Shown here piece by piece: positions 1 to 56,976 of a DNA stretch of 64,000 nucleotides. The translations under genes were made by a program, and so were the position numbers. The notes below the pieces were generated by a model. It saw only the letters and a list, made by a program, of their open reading frames with translations, ran no database searches and was not told the origin of the DNA. Every line of letters begins with the position of its first letter. Position 1 is the stretch's first letter. The DNA comes from Tetradesmus obliquus (taxonomy: Eukaryota; Chlorophyta; Chlorophyceae; Sphaeropleales; Scenedesmaceae), in the NCBI GenBank assembly GCA_030272155.1, contig CP126194.1, positions 6,005,501-6,069,500 on the forward strand, written 5' to 3'.

Positions 1-3000
1 TGCTGCGCTGCAATGGCACATGCTGTGGCTTGGGCAGGTGCTCTGCGGCCCAGCACAAGACTTCCTCGTTCCAGCTCGCATCTGCGGGCGGCCAGTGCGG
101 GAGTTGGCATTTTCGCAGTGAGCGCAAAACATTTGGGCAGGTACAGCAAGCCACATTGCGGGCGTGTGCTGCTACCTAAGCGCATGCACCAATTCATGCA
201 TTTGGCATGTGCTGCTGTCGGTACAGAGCTGCCAGCGTGTGTGTGCATGTGACCTGCCATCACAGCACTACATGACGCATTAACTCACCTTGCAACGCCA
301 GTTGCACTGTTAGGCAGTAACCCACAGCCTCTGCTGGGTCGTGGAATGCCACCAGGAAAGCATCGCCCTCCGTAGTAACCTCATAACCACCGAAGTCGGA
401 CAGGTACTGCCGCAGCACCTTGTCATGCAGGTCAACAGCCTGAGCCGAGGGCAGTAAGCAGCACCACAGCACACATCAGGCACAGCACAGGCAGCTTTAT
501 GTCCTCTTGGTTGCCCGGCAAGGACATTCATGGCAGCTGCTTCTGCTACACTGCAGGATGATACGCAGGTCACAGAGGGAGGATTGTCATGAAAGGGCAT
601 CCGTGCATGCCAGCAGACAAGGAGGCAAGTTGCAGCTCCCCAATCCCTGCAGAACACAACCCACCTCAGCTGCCTGCTGTGTGTCCCACTCCCACAGCTC
701 GGTGCTGCCTGCAATGTCAGTGCTCACGAGCGTGACAGGCATCCTGACCTGCGGCGGCAGCGCGCGCCGCCTGCGCGCCCTCAGCACCTCGACCACCTGC
801 TTGCGCACCCATACAAAGGCAACAGCTGTCCCCAGGGCAGCTGCACCCACCACCACAACTGCACCGACCAGAAATGCCACCAGGCGCGGGTCCACCCTAG
901 GGCCCTGCAGGCAATGAGACAGGGCGGCATGGCAAAGTTTTGCTGCTGCGTGTTACTGTGGTGCAAAGTTCTTTGTGTTGGTGTGATGTACAGCAAGAGC
1001 ATCACAATGGTATGACTAACGCCATGCTGCCACACATGACTACTGTATGCATCAGATCCTGCTGTTACATGTACATCCTGCAACCATTGCACCAACACTG
1101 GAGCTTCTTGATGTTGGTGAGGAATGCCCACCTTTGCCGAGGGCTGCTTCTTGCACACCATTGCAACTGCTGAGTTGTTTGTCTCCGTGATTGCTGACGT
1201 ATATCCATCCTGGCACACACAGCCCACGAACTGATAGTAGTATGGGTCCACCAGCAACAGCGTGGTGTCCTTTCCTGTGATACCAACTACTGGGCAGGTG
1301 GCAGGTATGTGCTGCTCAGCTCCTCCGCCAGGCACCTCCAGATGCTGCAGGTGCTCAGCAGACAAACTGCAAGCACGGCACAACAAGCAGAGCAGGAAAT
1401 GTCAACTCATGTACATCACTGCATTGATGCAGCTGGCGTAGCAGCGTGCTGCAGCGACCTGGGGTGCACATGAGCAATGGTTTTGACTTGACATACCTTG
1501 TCAGCTGTCAGAGGGGCGGCGCATAGCTCACTAAGCTAGTGGCAACAACAGCATTCCATGCAGCATACACAAGGAGCCCACCAACAGTCCATAGACCTGG
1601 CACACCTGCTTATTTCCATCCAGCGCGGCACAGCTGTGAGCGCGCTGTTGCCTGCGCTGCTGCTGGCTGCCAGACGTTTAGGTTCCTGCATGCTGGTTCC
1701 CCTGGCATCAAGCAATGCCAGATGGGGCATTAGCACCAGCTGCTCTGGCAGCGTGCCCAGCAGCCTGCTGTTGCCATTCAGCCGCATCACTGCCAGGTTG
1801 TCTGCACTGCCGAGACTGCAGGGCAGTGTGCCCTCAAACCTGAATATGCATGGCAGCAAGCATGCGTGAACAGCAACTGAAAAGCCATCCAGCACCATTG
1901 CACATCACCAGAGCCAGTGCCTGGCTTGTTATGCATGTGTTTTTCAAGTTACTTGCAGGAAACACTACTAATGCTGCAGGAGCCCCTCACCAAACCCTGC
2001 TCACCTGTTGTTGCTGAAATCAAGCTCTGACATTGCCCAGCTGCCCAGCTGATCTGGCAGCTGCCCACTCAGGCTGTTGTTGCCTAGCCTCAGCACACGC
2101 AATGTGCCACCAAATGGCGGCAGAGGGCCATCTAATGCATTAAAGCTGAGGTCCAGCTCCCTGAGGTCCACCAGCAGCAGCTCTGCAGGGATGCTACCAG
2201 TCAGCTGCAGCAGGCGGGGGTGCGGCAGGCAGGTGCACACAGCAACCTTTAAGTGGCCACCATGGGCGCTGTTGCAGGTAGCAATCATGGTACTGCTCAC
2301 GGCATACATTTAATACTGCTTGCCGGCCAAAACTGACAAACACAGTAGGACAGCTGAGGCAACGTCATTTCTCTCACCCTATTCTTGCATAGATCAATAT
2401 CATCCAGTGAAGAGTGCCATCTCGTGGTGATGGTTCCAAGTGCTTGAGTGGCGTCCCCATCCGGCTGCAGCGGCTGCAGCATGCTTGTGTTGGGCAACAC
2501 CAGGGGGCCAGACAGGCGGTTGACACGCAGGCTGACGGTCTGAAGTGCTGGTGCCAGCAGCAGCTCCTGCAAGGCAATGCTGCCGCTCAATTGGTTGTTG
2601 TCAAGCTGCAGGATGCGTAGCCGCTGTGCTTGCAGGAGACCAGGCGGAATGCTGCCTGTGAGGGTGTTGTTTGACAAATCCAGTGTCGTTAAGCTGGGTA
2701 AGCTAGCCAAGGTGCCATGGAGTTGGCCATTGAGACTGCATGACGATGCAAGAAGGCCTTGCAACTGCTGGAAAGAGCCGATGCCAGTGCCGATGCTTCC
2801 TGCAAGCTGCTTGTTCCCTGCAAGGTTGACGTACAGTAGAGTGCTGGCCAGGCTGCTATTGCCCTGCTCAGTCAGCACGCTGAAGTTGCCAGCAACATTG
2901 TTCGCAGGAAGCTGCAGGGCCACGACGGTGCCTGGGCTATTGCAACAACAGCAGCAGGGCAGGTCTGCCAGCCTCCATCTGTTGTCATCCTGCCATACAG

Positions 3001-3439
3001 GTGGCTGGGGGCTGCCTGACACATTGCTACAGCAGCTGACGCCAGCCCATTTGCAGTGGTCTGTGCCACCCAACCATCCATCTGCCTGAAGCCATTGGAC
3101 ACCCTGCCATGCCTGAAACAGCAGCTGCAGCTCCGCTTTCTGTGCAACCTTTAAAGCAGCCGTTGCTGCGTAAAGCAGGAGGCACGCCCAGGGGCATGTT
3201 TTAAGGTATGCCCAAACAGCTTAGGCCAGAGGAGGCCAACATATGCTTAGGCATTGCACTTTCAGTGCAACATGTGCTCATAACAGTATTGCTGCACTAC
3301 AAAGACTGCCGACTTGTGATGCCTGCTCACCTGGATGGCCCTGTGCACACGCACACTGCTGACGTAAGCCATCCACTGCAACAAATTGCAGCCACGCGGC
3401 TGCCGTAACAAGCAGTAAGACCCGTCCGACAGATGGCAT
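1..3439 (-). CDS. LRR receptor-type class III adenylate/guanylate cyclase (3' end off window)
   Basis: Probable membrane receptor making a cyclic nucleotide. Exons read from high to low: 3439-3331, 3165-2378, 2204-2005, 1839-1606, 1366-1132, 904-665, 439-289, then beyond; all phases close. It starts at MPSVGRVLLLV, a clear signal peptide; an upstream in-frame Met lies at 3481. An LRRNT-like cap follows (HCKWAGVSC), then plant-type LRRs (for example LDLSNNTLTGSIP), a juxtamembrane region, one transmembrane helix near residues 530-555, a basic stop-transfer run, and a class III cyclase domain. The two metal-binding aspartates are visible: D585 in STDIAGS and D628 in TEGDAF, at normal spacing. 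The substrate-specifying residues lie in the part not recovered, so ATP versus GTP is open. The remaining exon(s) in 1-288 were not resolved. The LRR-helix-cyclase order recalls plant LRR receptor kinases with the kinase replaced. Confidence 0.85.
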
Positions 3440-6400
3440 GGTGGCATTGACGAAAGGACTACATTGTGCTCTGCGGGGCATGCCTCAAGAGCCAAAAGAT
3501 TATTCCATAAATATAATATCAATAGGCTCGAAGTAAGCATTACATTAAGTTGTCAGCAGGCTGACCATGTCACGATTTGGTTGGATTTGATTGTCACGTG
3601 GAGGTTCTTACCTGCTGGGTTTTGCAGCATGCACAGGATGGCTGGCGTGTAAGAAGTTGCAAGAACTTTCAGGAACCTCCGCATACTTCGGAGGTGCTGA
3701 GCTACTTCAGTGGGAGGCTACTGCACAGTTGTGGCAAGAATTACACTTAGTGGTTGCATAACTGCAAGCCTGTATTCACGAATCAGCATCCACAATGTGG
3801 AGCAACCCCTACCCCAACTCGCAGCCTAATATGCGCGCAGCAGTGACGATATGACTGCCGCGCCTGAACTGTTGAAGCATGCATTGAAGCATGGCCCTGC
3901 CAAGCTCTCACGACATGCATGTATACCCTGCACACAGACTGGCGCTGTTTGCTCAAGAAACGTGCACACTGTAATTTCACAACTCGTACGGATGCATCGT
4001 ACGAATGCACCCATGCACGAAGCACACAGAATGCTGATTCTGTGGGTACCAGCATACGCAGGTGACAGGACCAGTGCGTGGTGCTCTCAATGTGAGGGGG
4101 TTTATGGCCAGCAGCAGGAACCAGCCAGTGAGAGCGCATCATGAAGCAGGCAGCATACCAACAGCACATAGCACAAAATCCGTACTCTGGTTGGCCGCTC
4201 GCAATCTTGATGGTGTGTGCGATGGCAAGGCAACGCCAAACACACCCCGCTGGCCAATGTGCTAGCAACTGCACACGCAAGCCATGCCACCTGCTACATA
4301 CCAATCCTCTCCTCCGTCGAAAGGTCTTAGCAGCGCTATGATAGCTACTAAGCAATCCACACTCACACACACATGAACATGTCGGCATAGCCACCGGCAC
4401 TTTTGTTGAGACGCAGTGCTGATTTGCACTCGACTACAAAGCTAGAACAACAATCCTGTATGCCGCACAGGGCATCATCAGCCAGCAACAAATGCGCGGC
4501 AGCACTACAGGCTGTGATGAGCACAGCTGCAACACGAGCCACAAGAGTCCATCACTGTCTTTCTGTCCTAGTTGACATGTACCACACACCCAAATCGTCC
4601 TTTCGATGCCCTCACTGTGCAGCACTGTTGTGCATGCCTGAGTTGCTTCACCCCAAGCCACACAGATAGCAGGCGACACTGCCATCTCGAAAGCCGCGAA
4701 TGAAATGCAACCGAGGCACATGCCACGTAATGTCAGGCTGCACGATACGCCGCCTGATGCTGCCAGTCCAAAACACCCTGGCTTAGAGGGTACACGGCAG
4801 GGACCAAAACGGCAGCTATGGCACCCCACCCCACGGGCCACCTCTACTCCATGTGGCTGTATCAGCAAGCACATGGACTGCACACCCCCAGCAAAGCACG
4901 TACAGCTGCGAGCATTGACCGCTGCTGCACGCATGCATACCAGCTGCCCTGCACACTGGGATACAACCTCACGCAGCAAAACTTCAAGGTACGCTGCACT
5001 GCAGACTTGCTGCTTGGACACAACCTGCTTGGACATCCCACCTGCAGAGCCGAGATATGTCCAAGCACCATGCTGAAACAATTGCCCAGCATGCTGAAAC
5101 ATGCCATTGCAACGCAAGTCCTGCTTTGTGTGTTGATTATTGTGCACCTTGAGGGAGCGATCATATCCTTAGAGCTGTGGGCAGGCAAGAAAGCGGCAAT
5201 CAAACAGAGAGAAACAGCCACAGCACGTCTGTGAGTTGGGCCGATGACTGCCAAACGGCCGTGGAGTGGCAGCAACAATGAGGCATCTGCCTCTAGATAC
5301 ACACAGAATGCATGCTGGCACACTTGCCATGCAGGAGTGCAGCAGCAACAGCATTCACACACAAACAATGCACTGCAGGTATCTGCTGCAGACTTGAGAG
5401 CCCACCCAGAGTCTCTGGTGGTTGGTTCTGACTATCCCCGCGTTGCGCAAGAGAGCGGCAACAAGCACTGCAAACGGTGGAAGAGCTCTGCCGGCCACGT
5501 TTGTAAACAAGCCTGACATTAATGGCACAAAAGACATCACACATGCAGCCGTGCGCATTGTGCGCGCTTAAACCACGCTGCGGAGACTGTTTCAATTCGT
5601 GATGCCATGTGCAAGCAGTGTCATTGGCTGCTTGCATGGCGCCGACATGGCCAACAAAACAAAGCAAGGCAAGTAATGTAGAATGTTGCAAATTCAAGGT
5701 TACTGCAGATATATGGCTTTATGGCACAAGCGCCTCCACACAGCGTTGCACAGAGCAACGTACACTTGAGCAGCGTGCATGAGGCTGCGCCCAACTCTGC
5801 CAGCCATCTGCAATCAGTGCAGCGCAGTGAAAGGCAGTCCTTGCCATGCACGCCAGAGAAAAGGCATGCCAGTGCTACAGCCGGCGCTGAAGCACCCAGT
5901 GCTACACCAGCGCCAGGCCACAAACCTTAACATGTGATTGACAAACAAGCAATGCGTAGTCCTTTGTTGACAGCTGCGATGCGCACACGCAGGAGTACCA
6001 GCAACACCTGAGCCACCGAATCCCGCGGGTCTCCATGCATGCTGCAGCTGCTGCACTCTTACTAACCAAGGCCTTGCAGCGCTTTCTGGCACAGGCCTGC
6101 TTATTGTATTCACAAGCCCTGTTTTGAGCTGCCTGGCGATCTGGCTCATGACCTATGCATGGCTCATCAGCAGCAGCTCAGGACGTCAAAAGGCCCACAC
6201 ACACATACACGCACGCAGTTGAGGCATACGCGTCTCATGCAAGCAGCTCATACCCTACGAGCTCCAACCGCTGGCAAGTAGGCTTCCTGCACTCATCTGG
6301 CAAGATGCTACCACCCCCTAGGCACAACGTGCCGCCCTCCAACATGGACCCCAACAACGCCACCATACACAGCAGACCAAACACAGGCGCCACATCACTT

Positions 6401-6898
6401 GCACCAACGCAAGCACAGCATCAGCGTCGCATGCTGGTTATTCCTCGCTGCTGCTGCCGCGCTCTGCGCCGGCCACACCCTTGCGTGACAGTCCTTGGCA
6501 GTAGTAGTAGTTTGGTACTCGCTCTGTATTGTACGATGCCGCTCTCACAATGCCACCACACATATCCACACAGTGCCCCGCCCAGGACCCCTGCCTCTCA
6601 TCAACCACACCTGCAAACCCGCCCACCTGCTCAGAAACCCCACCAAACCCTACCAGCACCCTTCTGGCATGGCATCTGCACAAGCACCCGCCGGCTGCAC
6701 TTCACCGCAGCTCAGCAGCTTGTCTCCACTTTCCATCTTCCGTCTTCACCTCCCACCTTTCTGAACCACCAAACAACAAGCCACTGCAGCGCCACCCGAC
6801 ATCACCCCAGCTGCACTCAAGCAGCCAAAAAACTCATGAGGCAGTTGCCTTCACACAGGGATGCCCGCTTGGGATGAACATGCCCCGCAGCCGGCAGC
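3440..6898. other. Intergenic stretch, no supported gene
   Basis: This lies upstream of the cyclase receptor and beyond the 3' end of the Gln/Ala-rich gene at 6899. Open frames here are short, lack matching splice sites and do not resemble known domains. It should hold the promoter and 5' UTR of the cyclase gene; the first 100 bp upstream are relatively AT-rich. I see no RNA gene or transposon end. Confidence 0.5.
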
Positions 6899-6921
6899 TC
6901 ATGAGGCAGTTGCCTTCACAC
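6833..6921. repeat. 24-bp direct repeat, period 65, over a gene's stop codon
   Basis: The 24-bp string beginning CTCATGAGGCAGTTG occurs at 6833-6856 and again at 6898-6921. The second copy contains the stop codon and the last codons of the minus-strand Gln/Ala-rich gene; the first lies just 3' of it. A short GGGATG string also follows both copies. Confidence 0.85.
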
Positions 6922-8815
6922 CTCCAGGGATGAACACGCCAGTGCCCTTGTTAGCGATCTGCCCACTCTTCACAACATCGGCCATGGGGTGCCAGTGGGA
7001 GCCCGCCCACTTAGGGGCCTGATGCACCGGACCAGACCTGCCTCCATTGTTGCGGCCAGCACCAGACGCACCGCCCGGCCTGTCCTCTGCACCAAATGTG
7101 GCAGATTTGCGGCCTGCTGCAGCCTGCGTGGGTGAGTCACGCGCACTGCCGGTGCTCACGATCGACGCTGACGTGCGGGGAGGGCAGCGGCCGTCCGGCG
7201 TGCGTGAGAGCGGGATGTCCATCGACGAGCGCTGGTTGGTGTTGATGCTGGAGACGACTCGGTTCGCGGCGCCAACAGCAGCACTGCTCAGCCACGCAGC
7301 CTGTGCACCTGTGAGGCCAATCTGCTGCTGCATGCCTGCATTAACGCCCATAGGCGCTGCACTGCTGCTGTACAGGCTGCTGCAGGCAGTTACGTCCAGT
7401 GACATGCGCCCAGTAGGAATGCGGTTCACAGGCGCAGCACGCAGGCCGTATGCTGCCGGCTGCTGCATATGCGGCAGCGCTGGCTGCTCCATGCTCAGCC
7501 TGCTGCTGTTGGCTGCAGGCATGTACAGCGCGGACTGCAGCGCCAGCTGGTTTCCTGCAAGCTGGTTTCCTGCAAGCTGGTTTCCTGCAAGGCCAGCGCC
7601 GGCTGGCGGCAGGCCAGATGAACCAGCCAAGCCTCCTCCGCAGAACGGCCCAGTGGCTGCCGACAGTGCCGCTGCTGCTGCGGCGGCTGATGCCGCAGCT
7701 GCTGCCGCTGCTGCTGCCATGGACTGCTGCGCCGCAAAGTGGGAGCCCATAGGCAGCTGCTGTGCCCCTGTGAAGTTGCAGCTCTGGTGCCCGGTGGTGA
7801 AGCTGTTGCTGCTGCCGATGTCGAAAGCTGCCATGCGCTGTGCCAGGCCTCCCAGGTCGATGCTGTGCCTCATGGGCTGCTGCTGTGCTGCACGTGCTGC
7901 TCCAGCGGCCCAGGCCCAGTCTTGGCTGATGTCCAGCGTTGCCGACTGTGCGGGGGTCAGCAGGCTGCGCGTGACGCGCCACCACATGCACGAGAAACAA
8001 CACAAAGAGCACAGCAGACGTCAGCAATGAAGATTTCGCAGTGTGGGCGCGTGTGCAGAGGTTGCTGCGTTACTGTGATATGGCTGGATACCTGCAGCAC
8101 AGTATGCTTGCGCGAGCTTGCTGCATGCAGCTTACATGTTGCTGGGAAGTCGCCACCGCGCATGTGTGCACAGGTACATGGCTAGCAACCTGCAGCTGGC
8201 CGCTGATGCTGACATCTGCTCAGAATTCCCTTGCTGCTGCTGCTGCTGTTTCGCTCACCAGTCCATTGGCAGCGACTGGTCCAGTGACAGGGACACTGCA
8301 GGGATGATGCCGCCGCATGATGACCCCGAAGGGGTTGACTGCATCGTCTGCGACAAATGCGACTGCTGCACCACAAATGGCTCGTCTTCCAGGATTGGTG
8401 CTGCTGTGGCCTGCCCCTGCCCAGGCGGCTGCTGCCGCTGCCTGTGCAGCGCCTGTTTCATCTGCAGCAGGCGGCTGATCTCTGCATCAATGCAGTGCTC
8501 GTCCGAACTGCTTTGCGGCTGCTGTTGCTGCTGCTGCTGCTGCTGCAGGAGTGCAAAGAGCTCGGCTGTGTTTGCTGCCTCTGCAGAATGGAACAGCTGG
8601 TCGTTGCCCATGCTTCCTGCAGCATCCAGACCGAACTGGGGTGCCTGGTCTGACATGCTGCTGAATGGGGACACGTCATTTGTGCGCATCGGAGCAAAAC
8701 TGCCGCCCAACAGGCCAACAGCTGCTGCTGCTGCTGCGCCCGTGTCAGCCTCGAATGAGTCCACTGCTGCGAAAGAAGGCCATAAGCTAAACTCAGCTAC
8801 GCTCTCCACAGTCAT
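6899..8815 (-). CDS. Gln/Ala-rich protein of unknown function with GTGVFIP C-terminus
   Basis: Two coding exons, 8815-8259 and 7964-6899, give 540 residues; the donor (GACTG/GTGAGC) and acceptor (GCGCAG/C) are in matching phase. The start is the first ATG after a splice acceptor at 8816; the segment upstream looks like a 5' UTR intron. The N-terminal half is Ser/Gln-rich with a poly-Q run and a predicted helical stretch (DAEISRLLQMKQALH). The C-terminal half has a poly-Ala run, three tandem AGNQL repeats (+ strand about 7549-7592) and a conserved-looking end, WAGSHWHPMADVVKSG then GTGVFIPGG. No enzyme domain is visible. Composition suggests a nuclear or RNA-associated regulator, but that is inference. 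A GTGVF(I/L)P tail recalls motifs I have seen in uncharacterised plant proteins; homology is untested. Confidence 0.7.
7549..7592. repeat. 15-bp tandem repeat, three copies, coding
   Basis: GCTGGTTTCCTGCAA is repeated three times with no interruption. On the minus strand it encodes AGNQL units inside the Gln/Ala-rich protein, so the repeat length keeps the frame. Confidence 0.9.
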
Positions 8816-44429: not shown

Positions 44430-46469
44430 CGCACTTTGAGACTTAATATCGAAAGTTTGGGTGCGGTTGCTGCCGTTCAGTGGCCCAGCTCGAGGTGTCG
44501 CTTTGCAGCAAAGCACCACATCACGTCCCAGCAACCAGACCACTTCGCGCTGTTCGAGCTCTAACTTGGTGTACGGGACAGTATAAAATTGGTACAACGT
44601 GCAAGCAGGTCAATCATTTCAAGTATAATGCAGCATAATGAGTACTCACATGGCTAGAAGTGGTGCCCCAAAAGGCCACTATGGCTGCTGAACCTCGTAT
44701 TGCAAGCATGTGCAGCTGTTGATCAAACACGATGCCAACTTTGCATGTACAAGGGAAGGGCGCCAGCCAACCCCTTCATGCCCAGCAGACCAGGACAGCA
44801 CCCTGGGCCAGCAGAACCCTTTCTCTAGACTCCTTGGCACCTAGCATGCAGGCAAGATTTCCTCGAACACTGAGCTCTTTAACCTTGCACAACAACAGTC
44901 CGAAAACGAATCCAGAAAGTTACCGGGGGTTTGAGTACTAGCGCGAGTACCGCACTGGCAGTGCAGCGAGTACTCAGCCAGTACGCAGCCTGAGCATCAG
45001 GCCTGGCCAGCTGGGCCAGCCAGACTGTGCCACAGGCGGCTATTCCAGCCAGTTTCATACAGGCACTGAGTCCTGATTCATGTGTTACATGTTGGGCAGC
45101 CCTGCTGTTGGGTGTCTAACATCGCAAATTTGCGCGCCGCTCAAGCCGCAACAGCATGTAGTGGTGGCAGGCCTAGCAACAGCATGCCACCAGCGTAGTA
45201 GGTGAAACCCATTTCAGCAGGTAGACAATGCATGCACTTCTGCTGATACCCTGCAAAATGCAAGTGCAAGGCGGGTCGGGGGGTTCTCCTCAAAGGCGCG
45301 CAACAAGGCGAACCCAGCCTCCGGGCAACATCAACACATACATAATGCTGTAAAGCTGTGCCAATATGTTGTTATGCAAACTTTATCTTTTGTCAGGACA
45401 AGGTGGATGCAGGTTCATTGGAGGCACCTCATGACACTTCTGCATGCACATGTGGTGGAGAAGCGGTCCGCTGCAACGTACAGTACTACGTGCACTTCAA
45501 CATCCACAGATTGCATGTGCATGCCAGCAGCTGCCAAATGGTTTGTAAGCAACAACGTCGTGATGCAACCAGGGCCCTGGGTGTCTTCAGGGGCGCTCTG
45601 GCAACTCGACATGCCCACAACCATGAAGCTGCTGCATCTGACATTCAGCACGCGAGCGTCGTTACTGCTCAGAACAAAACGCCTACAGCCTTCATGTGCA
45701 CGACATCACAAGTAAAGGGCAACTTCAGAATTGCTCTAGTTCAGAGGGACAGAATACAGTTGTGTCAGACACTGTCAGGTGGAAAAATCACACCGCGGTC
45801 GGATCACATCACACATGCAGAGCTTTGCACACAGCAAGATATGCATGCGCTGCCATTGCAGAATACAGTGATCAAGGCTGTCACGACTGTGTCACAAAAC
45901 ACATCAAGACCACAGCAACCGCACAATGCCCAGGCATCAAAATACAGTGATTTGGGCTGTCACAACTGTGTAACAGAACACACCAAGACCACAGCCACCG
46001 CACAACGCCCAGGCATCAACCACTTGCAGACAACTGGCCACTCAGCAACAACAAGCACTGTAAACACCAACAACTGGAACCAACGCAGTGGCATCAACCA
46101 CTTGCTGACAGCAATCGTGTGTGCAACCTGCCATCCACATACGTGTGCTACAACACAAGGCTGGTGACACTGGTCTAAGCAGCACATGAGATTGCATCAC
46201 GCTGTGCAATTGTTTGAACTGTCAGCAGGTGGCTGACTAGGACAGCCCAGCACTAGTGACTAGTACTAGCAACACCGTCTATGTATGTCAGACCATGTAT
46301 GTATGTTGTACGAACGACCTTGTGCTTGCTGCAGCCATGTCACCACATCTCAGCACTTTCCTGCAAAATGTACACCAGGGATGCCACCCCAATTATACAT
46401 CACGCCCAAGGTACAAACCCGACCAACGGGCAGCGGCCAAGGAGTTGCCACGCTGCCGCCACAAGCCGC
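44430..46469. other. Intergenic stretch with tandem repeats
   Basis: Promoter side of the Cys-rich gene and 3' side of the recombinase gene. A plus-strand frame of 269 codons (45358-46167) crosses the 79-bp repeat but has repeat-driven, compositionally odd content and no homologous look, so it is not called a gene. Confidence 0.5.
45862..46019. repeat. 79-bp tandem repeat, two copies plus fragments
   Basis: Copy one starts AATACAGTGAT at 45862, copy two at 45941, with about ten differences. GGCATCAACCACTTGC, the end of the unit, recurs at about 46014 and 46089. The period is not a multiple of three. Confidence 0.85.
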
Positions 46470-47066
46470 TCAGCCGCTCTTGCTGCCCTTCTCCTTGTTC
46501 TTCTCCTTTGCCAGCGCCGCCAGGTGCCGCGAGTACCCCGGCACGGCCAGCTTGAGCTCCTCACGCTCCCCCTCCGCCGCTTCCAGCGCTGCCCTAATGC
46601 TGCCAGAGGTCACCTGCAGCTCCTTGATGCGGTCAAGGATCAGCCGCACCTCGCGCCAGCGCGCCTTGCCATGCGGCTGCTTGCTGCGCCATGTGGTGTC
46701 GGGCGGCTGCTTCTCCTCGCACTGCTGCACTGACATGCCCCCGCTCACAGGCGCCGTGTACCAGTCCCAGAGGCTCTTCACGCTGGGCTGGTTGCGCAGC
46801 ACAGGCACAGCCTTGGCGACGCTGCTGACGCCAGCTGCTGTCGTGCTGTAGGGCGCATGCTCAGCTGATGTTGCTGCTGCTCTCACTCCAGCTGCCAGCG
46901 CTGCAGACACAGCCTGAGAGGCAGCAGCAGCTGCTGCAGCGCTTACTTCTGCCTGCTGTGCCGTGCCCCCTCCAGCGGTGACAGCTGCAGCAGCTGCTGC
47001 TGCAGCTGCAGCAGCTGCAGCTGTAACAGCAGCAGTCTCTGAAGTACCTCTTGCTACCCCTGCAGG

Positions 47067-47121
<55 letters not shown>

Positions 47122-50100
47122 CCACCAGTGCTGGTGTGCGCCCGCACGGCGCCGGAGCTGCTGGGGCGCAGCAAGCTGGAGAACGCTGCAGACAGCGAGG
47201 GCTGAGCTGCTGGGGCTCGCTGCAGCGTTGGTGCCGCGAACATGCGGCAGCTGCTGCCACTGCCAGCGCAGGCAGCTTGACCTGCCCGTGCTGTCACCAG
47301 CTCTGCCTGTGCAGCCTCCAGCTCCAGCTGCAGTCTGCGCACCCTAGCTGCAGCAGCTGATGGGCGGGCACCACCCGCTGCCGCACTCCGCCCTGCACGT
47401 TTGCGCTGTAGCCTGCGCTGCTGCGTGGTGTGCTGCTCCTCGTACTCCTCATCTGCATCTTCACAGTAATCGTCATCCTCATCCTCCCCGTAATCACCCT
47501 CCCCCTCCTCCTCCTCCTCCTCCTCCTCATCATCATCATCTGATGCTGCTGCTGCTGCTGCTGCTGCCATGCGTGCACTCCTGCTGCGGGTGCGGTGCGG
47601 TGTCAGCTGCTGCAGCAGGGACAGCAGCTCCTCCTCGCCGACATCTGCTTCTTCATCACTGTCACCTGGGCCAGCCGACGCTCCTGCTGCTGCTGCTGCT
47701 GCTGCCGCCGCTGACGCACTGGCTGCAGCAGCATCTGCAGCGGGTGATGTGACTGGTGCACCGCGGCCTGCTGCTGCAGGCGCTTCTAAGGGCCCAGCTG
47801 CCTCTGCTGCATGCAGCAGGGTCTCAAACACCTGCTGCTGCTCCTCAGCAGCATCGCTGAGGTCACGCGGCACCCTGCGGCTGTCCATCTCATGCAGCAC
47901 TGCCCTGCGGCCCAGCAGCATGTCGCGAATCTCCTGCACACCGTGTGCCAGGTCCATCACGCGCTCTCGGGTGCTGCGGGGGCGCAGGTGCTCATAACCA
48001 CCTGCTGCCAGCTTGTCCTTGAAGATGGCCAGCAGCCGCCTGCAGCAGCCGGGAGGAGGTGTGCCAGCAGCAACAAAACAGACAACAGGGGCAGCCGTTG
48101 TCAACACATGAACGCAAGCAGCGTGACAGTGCATCATACTGCTGCAGCCATGTCACCCCGTCGTGGAGTACTTGATGACAGGCGGCATCTCAAGCATGAC
48201 TGCAGCGGCTGCATGCAAACACAGCTACACCGCACACAACACACAAACATCACCACTGCGTTCTGCTGCACCCATTTGGGCCCTCACCTGAAGCGCGGCT
48301 TCTCCAGCATGAACTTGATGCTGGGGTTGGCAGCTGCAGCCTCGCGCACCTCCTCGTTCTCGCAGCACAGCAGGCCGCAGCTGTCCTGAGCTCCCACCCT
48401 GCCCAGGTAGTCCATCACTATTGCCAGCGCACCCGCTGAGGGGTTCTCAGCCAGCTGCTTGCGCGTCATCTTGTCCACCTGCAGGCGGCATGTAAAAGAG
48501 GACCTTGAGTACAGCGCTGTAAACAATGCACCTTGCTGCCACAGCATGCAGAATGCGAACTAGCTACGCAATGGCTGCAACAGAACAGGTGCACAAGGAG
48601 CATGCAGCGAGTAAACCCTGCACACGAAGGTAGCCACGACCGCTGCCAGCAGGTGGCAGGTGCTCACACCACTGCGATGCGAGCAAGCATACCCACCATC
48701 GCCTGCGCCTCCTTCACAGGTAGCAGCTCGGCCGCCAGCTCTGCCATCTCCTCATCATCGTCGAAGGTCAGGCAGAAGCGCTCAGCGAAGAAGGCGTCCA
48801 TCTGGTCCTGGGGCCAGCCAGCAGCAGCCAGCAGCCCCTGGGGCTTGAAGAAGCGCAGGTAGCACAGGTTGAGGGCGGTGCGCAGCCAGCGGCCCATCCT
48901 AGCGATCAGCTGCAAGCGGTGCAGAGCAGCCCAGCAACATTGTGAGATGACGGCAGAAGGGATGGTGGCAGCCGCCGGGACATCTAACTCTGCTTTGCTG
49001 CTGCTAGCATGCACAGCAGCAGCTGCTAAGCAGCGCGTGCGCTTCCTGCGGCATATGCTGCGTGCTGCCGCCCACCAAAGCGGGTTTCTCTCAGCAACTG
49101 CCCAGGCTCAGCGAGGCCACTCACCCCGTCATCCACACCTTGCTCATCCAGGTCGCGCGCCTTGTACATCCTGAAGGCGTGCGTCACCTTGGTGATGATG
49201 ATGCCGGCCGCCTCCAGGAAGGCCTTGAGGCTGTCTGCGTGCTGCGTGTAGCTGATGCTCTCGTGGGGGTTGTTGCCAGTCCACAGCGGGGTGTGGTGCC
49301 ACTCATCAGGGTCCAGCACGTTCGGCACTGGGGCCTTCTCCAGCATGAAGCGGGTGATCAGGTGCCGCGCCAGCGCACCATGGGCGCACAGCAGCGGGTC
49401 CTTGTGGCGGATGGAGCCGGCATAGGCCACCTTGCCACCAAACTGGCGCTTGCCACCCCGCAGCACTGCTGACAGCAGGATGGCAGGGTTGGGGCCTGCT
49501 CATCGAAACAAAGACGTAGGCGGCAGCAAGGCAGCGGCATGTTTGATGAAGGGTACACTACGTCCAGATTTGTGCAGAGCCAACAGTGTGCACAACGTGC
49601 TCCCAACACCGGGGCTGTCATTCTTATCGACATTATCTACAGCAGCACCCAGCATTGCTGCCGCATGCTACACCACTTCAGTTTTTGAATTGTCGAGGGT
49701 GATGTCAGCAATGCATTGCTGTTGTCTGGCACAGTTGCTATGTGCGCTGCTCGCATTTTGTCATAGTACACAATTGCATCGGACTGGATGCGGGAAATCA
49801 TTGGCTGTTCTATACTTCACACCTACCTATCACGCGCAGCACCTCTGGCGGCAGCAAGTCGGGCAGGAACACCAGCCGCGCATCGTCACCCCTGCCGATG
49901 GTCATGGTGAGCCACAGCGCCATGGACAGGTCGCGCGCAGCTGTGGGCTTGTCGCTGCCCAGCATGGTCAGGCACAGCTTGAATAGCTGGTCGGGCGAAA
50001 GAGTGTCATCCACTGTGCCGATCTGCAACATAAGAAAGTGTGGTTGGGTTACAGTTGTCCCCGCAGAGCCAGCATGCAAATAGTCCCCACTCACACAGCC

Positions 50101-51467
50101 CTATCGGTTGCTTCAACTGCCACCAATGTCACCACCACGCAGAGACACATGCAGCAGTGCCAGGGCACTGCAATTGGCAAGCGCTGTGTGTAAGAGTGCT
50201 GTAAAACCACTGCTGATAGAGAACAGATCTGCTTTCCGTATGATCACAGCACCAGCACATCACGAAGTGCCCTGACTGGAAAGCAGACAGTGTCACACTG
50301 TACAGTACAAACACCCAGCACTTGTCATAGCCACACAGCCTGTTCACCTGCGGGTCGCGGTCTGGCCTGGCACCCTTGTCTGGCAGCGACTTGGCCTCTG
50401 CCCCCGATGCAGCTGACGTGTAGGCTCCACCCATGTCGCCTGCTGAAAGGCCAGCTTTGAGGTGATGCAGCATCCAGTACAGCTTCACCATGCCACGGGC
50501 CTGCTTGACCGTGCCCAAACCCTGTGTGCAGGCAGTGCAGCATACAACCCCACGTTGGCTGTCATGCCTGGCATTGCTCACTATGGCAGCCGCTAGGCTG
50601 CAGCTGGGCTGCAGCTGAGTGAGGGAAGGCATAAGCTGCTTGGTCATTGCTACCGCACATCTGGCACATGCCTGCTACTGCACTGCCATCTGTCCTTGTT
50701 GTCACCGCTGCAGTGCTGTTCAAACGAGCCCAACGCACTGCAGTGGGTGTGTGTACATGTCCTTGTTTTACAGGAACATGTATGTGTATGCAATGGTAAT
50801 GAAGGTGAGACCAGCAGCAGCCAGTGGTGTGGCTCAGCAGCTGAATCTCATGCACAAACAGCGCCGTTCTGCCAACACTCACGATCTGTTTCGCCTTGTT
50901 TGGGGCCTCCCAGCCAGGGTAGTTCTCGCCTACCCACATCATGAAGCTGGTGATCTTGGCCTGTCCATCTGGAAGCGACATGTCCGGGTTGTAGGGCGGG
51001 TCGCGTGCGCTCCCATCCTGCAAGTGCTCACAGTGCCACTACAGCAGCAGCAACAGCAGCAGCAAACTAGGCACGTGTAAGATATGCAGGGCCCTCCCCA
51101 GCCAAGAACAGCCGAGAAAGCAACAGCTGATGGGTGCATCTATGCGCAGGCTTTTTTCTTTTGCCTAGTGGAGTCATGCTGCTGCGCAAGCCCCTACTCC
51201 CTTCAAGCTCACCAGGTAGCGCGCATACTGCGAGTCGTACTTGCGCTCAGTCTCAGGCCGCTTGGATCCCTCCATGTCATGCGCCAGGTTCTCCAGCTGC
51301 TCTGAGGTGATCCTGCAAATGTGTACATGCAGTGCCAGTGCCTTCTTCAGGCAACACCGACGCGCTTACTGCTAACCGCTGCATATCTGGCCTCTGCTGC
51401 TGACCTGACTGTCTTTCAGCACGCAAGCTGCTGCTGCTGCTGATTGCCAACTGTAGTGCATGAACGG

Positions 51468-51506
<39 letters not shown>

Positions 51507-51551
51507 TGTTCAACAAGTAAATTGCTCCCCAGTCGAAGCAGATGCACTGCT

Positions 51552-51597
<46 letters not shown>

Positions 51598-52027
51598 TGC
51601 TGCTACTGCTGCGCCCATCCTGCTGCTCTTCATGTGTGCAGTATGTGTAGTTAACTCAGCCACAACGCATTTGCATGTCTGTCTGTGCACAGCTTTTTGC
51701 TGGGAGATAAGGCAAGTGTAACCCTACAGCAGCAGCATGCAAGCAGCAGCAGCATGCAAGCACGAGTGCTGCTCACTCTGCATGCGCATAGCCTCCGCCG
51801 TCGTCGCTGCTCTGTTGCTTAGCTTTCAGTTTGCGCTTCTTGGCGGGCACAGTGCGCTTTGGTTTCGATGCGGGTCGGGGTCTCTTGCTGGCCTTCCTGC
51901 TGCGCCTTCCCCGCTTCGGGGGAGGCTCTGGACTGCTAGACTCCGATTCATCATCAACTAGGTCATCTAATTTTTCCGTGTTGAAGCTATCGCTTGGCTT
52001 CGCCTTAGATTTGCGTGTGCTCTTCAT
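46470..52027 (-). CDS. Crypton-type tyrosine recombinase with GCR1_C-like domain
   Basis: Cuts and rejoins DNA through a tyrosine; Cryptons are DNA transposons that use it. Nine exons (52027-51777, 51312-51213, 51017-50883, 50521-50348, 50022-49827, 49495-49125, 48909-48697, 48478-48288, 48039-46470) close in phase to 1066 residues. The N-terminus is acidic then very basic (PPKRGRRSRKASKRPRPA), a nuclear signal. The recombinase core shows box I Arg264 (TMTIGRGDDARLVFLPDLL), CAHGALARHLITRF typical of Cryptons, H391 and R394 in KVTHAFRMYKARDLDEQGVD, W417 in ARMGRW, and the nucleophile Y426 in LNLCYLRFFKPQGL. A long poly-Ala, acidic and poly-Q linker follows. The end, SVKSLWDWYTAPVSGG to TWRSKQPHGKARWREVRLIL, matches the GCR1_C DNA-binding pattern. 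All catalytic residues are intact. Domesticated host gene or mobile element is undecided. Confidence 0.88.
51467..51605. repeat. Two (CTG)n tracts in the first recombinase intron
   Basis: About 12 CTG units at 51467-51502 and about 14 at 51555-51596, with GTT and CTA interruptions at the end. They read CAG on the coding strand of the recombinase gene, opposite to the tracts that abut acceptors elsewhere. Confidence 0.9.
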
Positions 52028-52169
52028 GAGTTCAAATCATATTCAACTCCCAAGTGCCTCCGAAATGCAATCGCAGAGCACTGCGAGTGCCTTACATCAA
52101 TAATAATACCATTAGATGGCGAGCGTCTTGCAGGATGCGCTGTGCGGTTCGTCAGGACCCAGGTTTTGG

Positions 52170-52285
52170 GTGGTAACTAGGGCCGTGGCAGTTACCACGG
52201 TTTGCGTACCCTCAGTGTGGTACGCATGCGTACTGGTAACCCAGTGGGGGGGTACGCAAACCCCCTGGTAACCTTGAGTTACCAG
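52170..52285. repeat. Dense cluster of inverted repeats upstream of the recombinase gene
   Basis: Three nested elements lie in 116 bp. GTGGTAAC (52170-52177) pairs with GTTACCAC (52191-52198). GGTTTGCGTACCC (52199-52211) pairs with GGGTACGCAAACC (52250-52262), flanking the perfect 14-bp palindrome GTACGCATGCGTAC (52220-52233). CTGGTAAC (52265-52272) pairs with GTTACCAG (52278-52285). GTACGCA or its complement thus occurs four times. Confidence 0.9.
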
Positions 52286-53725: not shown

Positions 53726-56700
53726 TCAGTAGCGTGTTGCGCCGTACTGGCCCTGGGAGGTCTGGAGCAGCAGTCTGCATAAAAGACAGCACAGGAGCAC
53801 CACCAGGCTCTCAAGCTGCCCCACCAGAATTGCATTCACATGTTTCCGTGTTTTTGTCGCACACAAACCACAAAGCACACACAGAACCACAAAGCACACA
53901 ATGCGCTACTGCCGGGTGCTGCGGAGCAACTAGGCGCAAGCATTGCTAAACACAGCTACATGTATGTGCAGTGCCAGCTTGCAGAGTACACGTTGCATCT
54001 GCAATCTAGCGCACCCATCATCACCACTGCATCTGCCCTGCCCCTTCAGTGTCCCAGCAATTGCAACGCCAGCCGGATCTACATAAACTCGCACGCTGCT
54101 GCTGCTCACCTCCTGCGGGACGACTCTCCAGCTGCAGCTGCGTCACCAGCACCAATTGCCGCGCCGCCAGCCGCTGCTACGCCAGCGCGCTCAGCGCCCG
54201 GCTGCTGTTGCTGCTGCTCCTGGCCGGCGCCCTCCGGCCGCGGGTTCACCTGCCGCTGCAGGTTCTGGTTGTGCACGTGCTTGAGCACCGTCCAGTCGAA
54301 CACGTAGTCCCAGTGGTAGCCTGCGCCACGCGGCAACGCAGACAAACAACAGCAGCAAAGGACATGTTACATCTTTGTTGACGGTACTGGCAGTCGGCCC
54401 ACAAGGAGCTATCAACACCACATGGCACCACATGGCAATAATTTGCTGCAGACAGGCGCCACAACCAGCTGCCCTAGAGCATGCACTTATCTGTAATGCT
54501 TCCACCCTCACTCATCCCGTCTCTGCCTTCCGCGCGACGCCACTCTGCTGCGCAGCTAGTCACCCTAGGCCTGCATCAGCACCACACCCCCAGCTGCCAC
54601 AATCCTGCGCTCACCCTCGCGCGCAAAGAGGTCCCTGAAGACCTTGCGCAGGTAGGAGTAGTCGGGCTTGTCGTCGAAGCGCAGGCTGCGGCAGTACTGG
54701 AAGTAGGTGGTGAACTCCAGCGGGTAGCCCTTGGTCAGCAGCTCGATGGGCGTGGACATCTTCTTCTCGCTGATCTTCTCGTACTTCTGGCGCTTGGTGG
54801 CGGCCTTGAGCCCCTGCCAGGGCAGGCTGCCGCGCAGGAAGTACATCAGCACGTAGCCCAGGCTCTCCATGTCATCACGCCTGCCGGGTGACGCGGCAGC
54901 AGCAGCAGCAGCCACAGGCAACGACAGCAGCAGCATGTTGAGCACATCTGATCTCAGCATGCACGGACGAGGCAAGCACAACGTTGCCAGCAGCTGAACT
55001 TTGGCTTCCCACCACGCATGAACGAGTGCACAGCACATGCCACTGCCTCATGCGGGTTGCGCGTGACATGGAACAGTGGAGCATAACGAGAACACACGCA
55101 CGCTGTTGCACGCACCTGCTCTGCTCAATGCCGAGGTGCGTGTTGATGCTGGCGTAGCGTGCCGTGCCCGTGAGGTTCTTGTTCTCGCGGTACGGGATGT
55201 GGATGTGGCTCTTGGGGTCCCGGTACTTCTTGGCCAGGCCAAAGTCGATGATGTGCACCTGGCCACGCGGTAGAGCATCAGCAGCAGATCAGGGGCTAGC
55301 ACGCAGCGTCTAAGGGCTGCTGCCAGCAGTGCCAAGGGGCTGCATGCAGCAGACGCCTGCTGCTACTAGCGCCTGCTCAGTTGCAGCACGTCAACATGAC
55401 ATGTGGGCGACTGCCACACCTTCTGCAGTTGCTAGACACAGCCAGAGCTCCCTCGCTAACTGCTACTGCCAAGACGTATGGACTACCCCAGGCTCTGCCA
55501 TACTCTGCTTCAGCTGCCCTTCCTGGCATGGCACAGGCCACCAATCTGCGAGCATCCGTGCTGCAGCTGCCTGCGCTGCTTTGTGCTGCTGTGCAGCCTC
55601 CCTGTCGCCTGCTGTACCTGGTTGGCCTTCTTGCCCAGCCCCATGAGGAAGTTGTCTGGCTTGATGTCCCTGTGGATGAAGCTGCGCGCGTGCACAAACT
55701 CCACTCGCGACAGCTGCAGGCGGCAGCACCACGACAGCAGCAGCAGCGCACACAAGCACGAGAGCGTAAACAAACAGTGCTTGCAGCAGATGCGTCCGCG
55801 CTACCAGGTGTGCGCCTGAGTAAGCAACAACTGAGATATACTTAGCAGCTGATACGCTACGCCAATGCTGTACCCGGCCGCATGTGGCTGCTGCTGCTGC
55901 TGTTGTTGAATAGTCTCCTCCAGTGCATGCCTGGCGCAGCACTTGCTGCTGCTCCTGCTGCTATAACCGCGCTTTGCGTGCTGAGCTGGTGCAGTGCTGC
56001 GACTGCTGCCAGCAGCCTGCCTCTGCAAGCATCTTCGTTGGCAGCTGCGCCAGCTGCTGTTGGAAAGCAAGGCTCAAATCAAATGCTGATCACCTGTCGG
56101 TACTGCTTGATGCCCACAGCAGCAACGCAACAGCCACGACAGGAGGAGGTACAGATCCAAGATAATGCACGCGTAGGCTGTTGCTAGAATTTAACATAGC
56201 CAGGCTGCATCAACTAGGTGCGAGCAGTTGAAGTCGTTGTTCATCGAGCCAGCCTGCACGCACCAGCTGGTCCGCCAGCATTAGCACTGTCTTGAGGCTG
56301 AACTTTCTGTTGCAGAAGTTGAACAGGTCCTCAAGGCTGGGCCCGAGCAGGTCAATGACCATCACGTTGTAATCCCCCTCCACGCCATACCAGCGCACGT
56401 TGGGGATGCCAACTGCAGTAGAGCATAAACACAAGTTCAGCGGGAAAGGCAACAGCAGCGGCAACAGTACCAGAAGCAGCTGCTGTGCACCATGCCTCTT
56501 TGCTTGCTGCCTGCCTGCCTGCCACGCACCTCCACCCTGCAGGATCTTGTATAATTTTGATTCATACAGCAGCTGCGGGTGCTTGGTCTTGATGCTCTCC
56601 TGCAGAACAAGGAGCGGAGTGAGTGTCCATGCACAGCAAGGCCTGCCCGGCTGGCCGCTGACGAGCGTGCTGGTTCGCTTCACGCACCAGCTTGATAGCC

Positions 56701-56976
56701 ACCTCCTCTCCAGTCTGTATGTTGGTGCCTGCAGGCCAGAGCGCGTGAGTCAGCAATGTTCTGTCCAGCGGCAAACATAGCGCCCGCCCCTCTGCCCCGG
56801 CAACGCACCTAAGTAGATATCTCCAAACGACCCGCCACCTGTAGCACAAACGAAGCACGTTAGCGCCTGGCCACGACCCACTGCATGCCCCAAGGCACAG
56901 CGAGGCCTGGGCAGCATAGCTCACCGATTTTGCGCCCCAGTCGGTAGCGTCCAGCTATACGAATGTCTAACGCCAT
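53726..56976 (-). CDS. Casein kinase 1 (CK1 delta/epsilon-like, plant CKL type)
   Basis: Ser/Thr kinase acting on primed or acidic sites in clock, membrane-traffic and growth pathways. Ten exons (56976-56925, 56838-56809, 56728-56688, 56599-56530, 56412-56264, 55713-55618, 55258-55116, 54880-54615, 54320-54110, 53774-53726) close in phase to 368 residues. It starts [18 protein letters not shown]; the Gly-rich loop is [11 protein letters not shown]. Lys40 in VAIKL, Asp130 in [10 protein letters not shown] and Asp151 in [10 protein letters not shown] correspond to K38, D128 and D149 of human CK1 delta. The CK1 signature [20 protein letters not shown], the [17 protein letters not shown] segment and the [12 protein letters not shown] segment follow, then [13 protein letters not shown]. 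The tail is short, Gln/Ala-rich, ending [10 protein letters not shown]. The final 49-bp exon is the least certain part. Confidence 0.96.

Follow-up and report, generated by a model that had tools for sequence, protein, structure and literature searches.

What is the intron-rich tyrosine recombinase gene on the minus strand of a 64,000-nucleotide stretch of the Tetradesmus obliquus genome (contig CP126194.1, positions 6,005,501 to 6,069,500; hereafter, the window): a mobile element, or a recombinase that has been domesticated by its green-algal host? A sequence-only reading of the window had assigned the gene to the Cryptons, kept both possibilities and leaned toward long residence in the genome. 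Here, we find that the gene lies in a larger unit that is, with high probability, a recently mobile, autonomous Crypton-type DNA transposon fitting the description of CryptonF. The assignment to the Cryptons is upheld by an NDC10_II-related recombinase with the R...HxxR...(W)...Y set, a GCR1_C-like C-terminus, short terminal direct repeats without variable target duplication, and dispersed, near-identical, intron-bearing copies.

The gene itself was rebuilt from the raw window. The minus-strand frame from 52027 to 46470 comprises nine exons, 3201 nt and 1066 codons plus the stop, contains no internal stop codons, and all eight of its predicted introns are of the GT...AG type. The catalytic residues R264, H391-A-F-R394, W417 and Y426 and the C-terminal blocks LWDWY, TWRSK and ARWREV are all present, reproducing exactly what had been proposed. 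The exons are as follows:

51777..52027, minus strand: exon 1, basic/acidic N-terminal tail, aa 1-84
51213..51312, minus strand: exon 2, in which the presumed N-terminal core-binding domain begins
50883..51017, minus strand: exon 3 of the rebuilt frame
50348..50521, minus strand: exon 4 of the rebuilt frame
49827..50022, minus strand: exon 5, box I Arg264 (TIGRGDDAR), the Arg being invariant in a paralogue on contig C8
49125..49495, minus strand: exon 6, catalytic domain with H391-x-x-R394 and the main NDC10_II match
48697..48909, minus strand: exon 7, W417 and the candidate nucleophile Y426
48288..48478, minus strand: exon 8 of the rebuilt frame
46470..48039, minus strand: exon 9, low-complexity Ala/Gln/acidic linker and the GCR1_C-like block at about aa 959-1025

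Two lines of evidence point to the nature of the encoded protein. First, residues 287-427 match Pfam NDC10_II above the cut-off (E=1.5e-9, 37.8 bits vs a cut-off of 26.3). An all-Pfam scan at E≤10 listed neither DUF3504, a profile that the sequence-only reading had named alongside GCR1_C, nor DUF3435; two other sub-threshold matches, DNA_pol_phi and CSRNP_N, both fall on the acidic linker. There were no matches in NCBIfam or PHROGs, and no relatives were confirmed in viral contigs or prokaryote genome contigs. Second, the proposed fused GCR1_C-like domain has indirect support, through homology, the window protein's own match being sub-threshold: the C-terminus of the C8 paralogue is homologous to that of the window protein (BLASTP E=3e-7) and matches GCR1_C above the cut-off (E=7.4e-7, 29.8 bits), and it is because this aligned C-terminus passes that we call the block GCR1_C-like. 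Altogether, these similarities suggest that the gene encodes a tyrosine recombinase, presumably catalytically active, with a C-terminal GCR1_C-like DNA-binding block.

In the genome searched (104.66 Mb in 17 contigs, the window lying on contig C4), PF00504, a light-harvesting family, is matched by 52 exon-level segments, which marks the host as photosynthetic. A search with the recombinase core gave at least 68 exon-level matches that resolve into at least nine near-identical copies in unrelated flanks, for which the sequence-only reading had suggested a search, together with weaker relatives; copy counts are lower bounds throughout. The locations are as follows:

C3:1.91M: copy A
C3:5.01M: copy B
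contig C4: copy C, the window copy
C8:4.28M: copy D
C5:6.57M: copy E
C12:4.85M: copy F
C12:0.67M (C12:667673-679991): copies G and H
C3:4.63M: copy I
C8:1.32M, C6:5.60M, C2:3.49M, C8:4.53M, C6:3.59M: weaker relatives

In DNA searches from both sides, similarity stops at 52283 and at 44919 in all seven full-length copies. Thus, 46470..52027 describes the gene correctly but not the mobile unit, which is larger, 44919-52283. Copies A, C and D, on contigs C3, C4 and C8, are identical across all 7365 bp and have unrelated flanks. Compared to the window copy, copy B differs at 1 of 7356 aligned bases and by a 9-bp gap, copy F at 32/7361, copy E at 47/7347 and copy I at 78/7343; copy G lacks the first 483 bp and differs at 76/6836, and copy H lacks the first 1989 bp and differs at 64/5357. 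The coding frame is open in six of the seven full-length copies (A-F), copy I being frameshifted by two single-base deletions, and what remains of the coding sequence in the truncated copies G and H has no internal stops. The other eight copies keep GT/AG at each intron that they span, the 11 coding indels that distinguish copies B, E, F, G and H from the window all have lengths divisible by three, and the copies vary in the linker through in-frame changes in repeat length. Because GT/AG and in-frame indels are kept, the intact frame is more than chance. Dispersed near-identical copies, three of them identical, and six open frames in seven support a recently mobile DNA transposon.

These copies bear directly on the idea that a Crypton recombinase became fixed as a single cellular gene for DNA binding. 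Such domestication is documented, e.g., for Gcr1 and Cbf2/Ndc10 in yeasts (Kojima and Jurka 2011, PMC3212892), and an intact long frame with eight introns and a host-like linker would be in keeping with it. However, the introns, the linker and the CAG runs that had prompted the lean toward long residence sit inside the 7365-bp unit that recurs identically on contigs C3, C4 and C8; they are, therefore, the element's own and uninformative on residence time. Introns are, moreover, common enough in Cryptons, reportedly including Cn1, to carry no weight on this point. With at least nine copies that have defined ends and unrelated flanks, three of them identical including the introns, domestication of the window copy is contradicted by multicopy dispersal, and we consider it very improbable; the single-copy C8 paralogue suits this explanation better.

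The ends of the element have a distinctive anatomy:

44919..52283, minus strand: whole mobile element, 7365 bp, delimited by the common borders of the copies and by the exact length and identity of copies A, C and D
52278..52283, minus strand: 5′ terminal direct repeat GGTAAC, the flanks being unrelated from the next base outward
52252..52272, minus strand: 5′ arm (element positions 12-32), which pairs with the 3′ arm
52172..52283, minus strand: 5′ terminal region with inverted hexamer copies (five of the element's six GGTAAC/GTTACC), likely a recombinase-binding region
52028..52277, minus strand: 5′ leader, presumed from its position to hold the promoter and 5′ untranslated region
44925..46469, minus strand: 3′ non-coding part of about 1.55 kb, in which no second gene was recognised and which holds single-base indels between copies
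44919..44938, minus strand: 3′ arm GTACTCAAACCCCCGGTAAC, an imperfect inverted copy of 5′ positions 12-32
44919..44924, minus strand: 3′ terminal direct repeat GGTAAC, defined by end comparison of the copies

The element starts with GGTAACTCAAGGTTACC (GGTAACTGAAGG in copy E) and ends with CAAACCCCCGGTAAC. GGTAAC is present at both ends of the seven full-length copies and of two short derivatives of 476 and 862 bp; the direct repeats sought in the flanks are thus present, at a length of 6 bp rather than the 4-5 bp anticipated. In the genome, 13 places carry the 5′ tip pattern, nine of them exactly and four with two mismatches, and 15 carry the 3′ tip pattern, 13 exactly and two with one mismatch; backward-pattern controls gave 0 and 1, respectively. 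The base after the 3′ hexamer in the 15 right flanks is T in eight, C in five, A in one and G in one, and the nine left flanks have no fixed base beside the hexamer. The earlier statement that long terminal inverted repeats are lacking is strictly true. Nevertheless, an alignment of the final 20 nt, GTACTCAAACCCCC-GGTAAC, to 5′ positions 12-32 in reverse complement, GTACGCAAACCCCCTGGTAAC, gives 19 matches, one mismatch and one gap, a score reached by none of 2000 base shuffles. Five of the element's six hexamers lie within its first 112 bp, and the element holds 6 of the 13 in the 64-kb window. The first 120 nt fold better than all 200 shuffles (z=-4.43), and folding is weaker in the last 120 nt (z=-2.53, 3/200 shuffles as good).

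Could the recombinase be a passenger gene moved by another enzyme? A composite of this type, MarCry, in which a Mariner transposase moves a Crypton gene, is on record in the account of PMC3212892. However, the ends described above lack both true terminal inverted repeats and a variable target duplication, carrying a constant hexamer instead, and the recombinase is the only gene recognised inside the element. Neither of two overlapping open reading frames (ORFs) in the 3′ non-coding part has a Pfam match above the cut-off, the best being a sub-threshold match to Methyltransf_36 (E=0.0054); the nearest TGTAA polyadenylation-type signal to the stop is far off, at +1381. We judge a passenger to be as improbable as domestication.

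The preferred explanation, a Crypton that moves by its own recombinase, also finds support at unoccupied sites. Copy B sits within a tandem repeat, of which seven unoccupied units span the joint and five were read; each has a single six-base slot between matching flanks (GATAGC in 4/5, GACAGC in 1/5), although in one of the five the alignment takes in the right flank and, on the left, just the few bases next to the slot. A single slot of six bases has thus given rise to two hexamers with no further duplication, and insertion at copy B was therefore not accompanied by a target-site duplication. A relative of the 476-bp derivative's site at C3:421k has a single GGTAAC and a similar right flank. 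The right flank of copy E is a dispersed repeat, and six unoccupied relatives that were read have GGTACC (three), GCTACC (two) or GATACC (one). Copies G and H are joined head to head and both lack their 5′ ends; copy H is followed on its right by CTTGAGTTACC, which makes its terminal sequence, GGTAACCTTGAGTTACC, equal to the first 17 nt of the element in reverse complement. The simplest reading of this joint sequence is that copy H inserted at the tip hexamer of a different copy, probably copy G, to which it is joined head to head, and that a subsequent deletion removed both 5′ ends.

A tyrosine-recombinase retrotransposon of the DIRS/Ngaro type, or its remnant, is less probable still. Elements of this type share the tyrosine recombinase and are found in algae. 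However, all copies keep the introns that they span, which favours a DNA intermediate, and neither the gene nor the two scanned 3′-region ORFs contain a reverse-transcriptase domain. Segmental duplication spreading the locus without transposition, to which the head-to-head copies G and H and the tandem repeat around copy B might point, can be given next to no weight because, in all seven full-length copies, similarity breaks off at the same base on either side and the flanks beyond are unrelated, apart from the tandem-repeat context of copy B. The passenger, retroelement and segmental-duplication explanations are thus rejected on ends, retained introns and unrelated flanks, respectively.

For the Crypton, we suggest a model in which the recombinase would bind the inverted arms at both element ends. 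Recombination between the two terminal GGTAAC repeats would then release a DNA circle carrying one GGTAAC; a circular DNA intermediate has been proposed for Cryptons by analogy (PMC3212892). Once the ends are joined, the ~20-nt inverted arms would face each other across TCAAG, with the predicted junction ...AAACCCCC-GGTAAC-TCAAG-GTTACC-AGGGGG... Subsequently, the circle would recombine with a chromosomal hexamer resembling GGTAAC, regenerating one repeat per end without a target-site duplication. According to the same account (PMC3212892), the typical site of a tyrosine recombinase consists of two inverted repeats of 11-13 bp with 6-8 bp between them; here, either the spacer would be 5 nt, with the hexamers counted as part of the arms, or the exchange region would be the hexamer itself. 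Mobility, the circle, arm binding, the order of strand exchange and the rise in copy number are what we infer from the comparisons above.

Several observations weigh against this interpretation. Constraint between copies is only weak: the ratio of nonsynonymous to synonymous polymorphism (pN/pS) is 0.43 between copies C and F and 0.53 between C and E, but 0.82-1.03 in the pairs E-F, F-I and E-G and 4.99 in G-H, these mixed ratios resting on few changes. The GCR1_C match at residues 959-1025 is below the Pfam cut-off of 23 both for the whole protein (E=0.068, 13.9 bits) and for the C-terminal 132 aa alone (E=0.0027, 18.4 bits), and a six-frame GCR1_C search of the genome found the C8 paralogue only and none of the nine copies. 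PDB sequence searches gave no relative, the single match, to an unrelated enzyme, being at chance level (E=1.3). Among the empty sites, the GATAGC of copy B matches GGTAAC at four of six bases, suggesting that either the target word is loose or mismatches are repaired; the left flank of the 476-bp derivative's relative is marginal (score 31 vs a maximum of 27 in 500 shuffles); and the comparison for copy E is one-sided, its left flank not being alike. The assembly does not contain the predicted circle junction. Finally, the evidence is genome sequence throughout, with a predicted splice model and with movement that we infer.

How does this element compare to known systems? Like CryptonF of fungi and oomycetes, it has one recombinase gene, a C-terminal block resembling GCR1_C, 6-bp terminal direct repeats, which most fungal and oomycete CryptonF members have, no true terminal inverted repeats, and similarity to Ndc10, which is derived from CryptonF (PMC3212892). 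It differs in its green-algal host, its length of 7365 bp, the offset ~20-nt inverted arm pair, the long low-complexity linker and the sub-threshold GCR1_C match. Each CryptonF feature tested fits, in the case of GCR1_C via the C8 paralogue only, and the NDC10_II match points in the direction of CryptonF. The window catalytic region shares this Pfam family with yeast Cbf2/Ndc10; however, Ndc10 is a host centromere protein that has lost the catalytic site (PMC3212892), whereas the gene here has the complete set and is multicopy. CryptonS elements of oomycetes and a diatom also have 5- or 6-bp terminal direct repeats but lack GCR1_C and mostly have TATGG termini (PMC3212892), in contrast to GGTAAC and a GCR1_C-like block here. 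The element also differs from CryptonA and the DUF3504 animal genes, whose recombinase has no C-terminal domain, since that profile was not listed in the Pfam scan, from Starship captains (DUF3435), being a 7.4-kb element with one recognised gene and no DUF3435 rather than a large cargo element, and from DIRS/Ngaro elements in lacking the reverse-transcriptase domain and retaining introns. Crypton Cn1 of Cryptococcus neoformans (Goodwin et al. 2003) reportedly has one intron-containing gene with a central recombinase and a fungal-transcription-factor-like C-terminal DNA-binding region, short direct repeats, no long repeats and a length of about 4 kb, as opposed to 7365 bp here. The Cn1 repeat is 4 bp (PMC7175516), vs 6 bp here.

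Table 1 of PMC3212892 lists no chlorophyte among its 24 species, which are fungi, animals, oomycetes and a diatom, and we found no report of a Crypton in green algae in the titles and abstract openings searched, which did not cover subscription journals or Repbase. As far as seen, the host lineage (within this literature) and the attachment-site anatomy are new, and the element is ordinary in kind. If correct, our interpretation would mean that GCR1_C-bearing Cryptons reach a photosynthetic lineage, and it would bear on whether CryptonF is of fungal origin with sideways spread or older. With three identical copies on different contigs, short derivatives that keep both termini and an empty site that can be read, this family lends itself to testing how Cryptons choose and cut their sites; to our knowledge, such a test of a Crypton recombinase would be the first. 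Genome annotation should mask this gene as a transposon rather than describe it as a host transcription factor or centromere protein.

The two short derivatives extend this picture. Of the two ends, the 476-bp element on contig C3 retains 86 bp at 100% identity and 362 bp at 99.7%, and the 862-bp element (C6:5770505-5771366) retains 113 bp at 91% and 91 bp at 77%, with unrelated sequence between them; end fragments lie on contigs C2, C5 and C9. Both elements look like non-autonomous partners that could be mobilised in trans, and the 862-bp element is probably a separate non-autonomous family. Filler at the deletion point of the 476-bp derivative contains TAAACCCTAAACCC, which resembles the plant-type telomere repeat and is possibly a repair scar. 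A broader proposal, which we hold tentatively and with less than even confidence, is that a green-algal Crypton lineage joins the recombinase to GCR1_C, uses a mismatch-tolerant hexamer slot (GATAGC for GGTAAC), ~20-nt arms that meet only in the circle and inverted hexamers at one end, which could make the reaction directional, and mobilises short derivatives in trans; the pairing of recombinase and GCR1_C would then not be confined to fungi and oomycetes.

The C8 paralogue (L075, C8:1321500-1331000) has its core at about 2198-3997 and its GCR1_C-like end at about 6994-7203. The core is 38% identical to the window recombinase and retains R, HxxR, W and Y, and a long Ala/Gln/acidic linker also separates recombinase and GCR1_C block (6398-7342). 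Among the matches listed, it is single copy at the DNA level, its other short DNA matches being taken, from their positions, to be CAG-type repeats. The paralogue is a stronger candidate for domestication than the window copy. Diverged recombinase fragments at C2:3485k, C8:4526k and C6:3588k, two of three with H-x-x-R (THEFR, THIAR), point to several older lineages in this genome.

In the surroundings of the element, none of four neighbouring ORFs scanned against Pfam had a match at E≤0.001. Two of these ORFs, at about 54300-56900 on the minus strand, belong to a flanking gene that by eye resembles a casein kinase 1. On the other side, a ~140-bp dispersed repeat (window 44579-44717) adjoins the element and occurs at no fewer than 27 other places with 92-97% identity; on contig C17, four such places follow one another at intervals of 3830 bp. 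The flanking stretch at about 54300-56900 has a diverged relative at C4:3711004-3713585.

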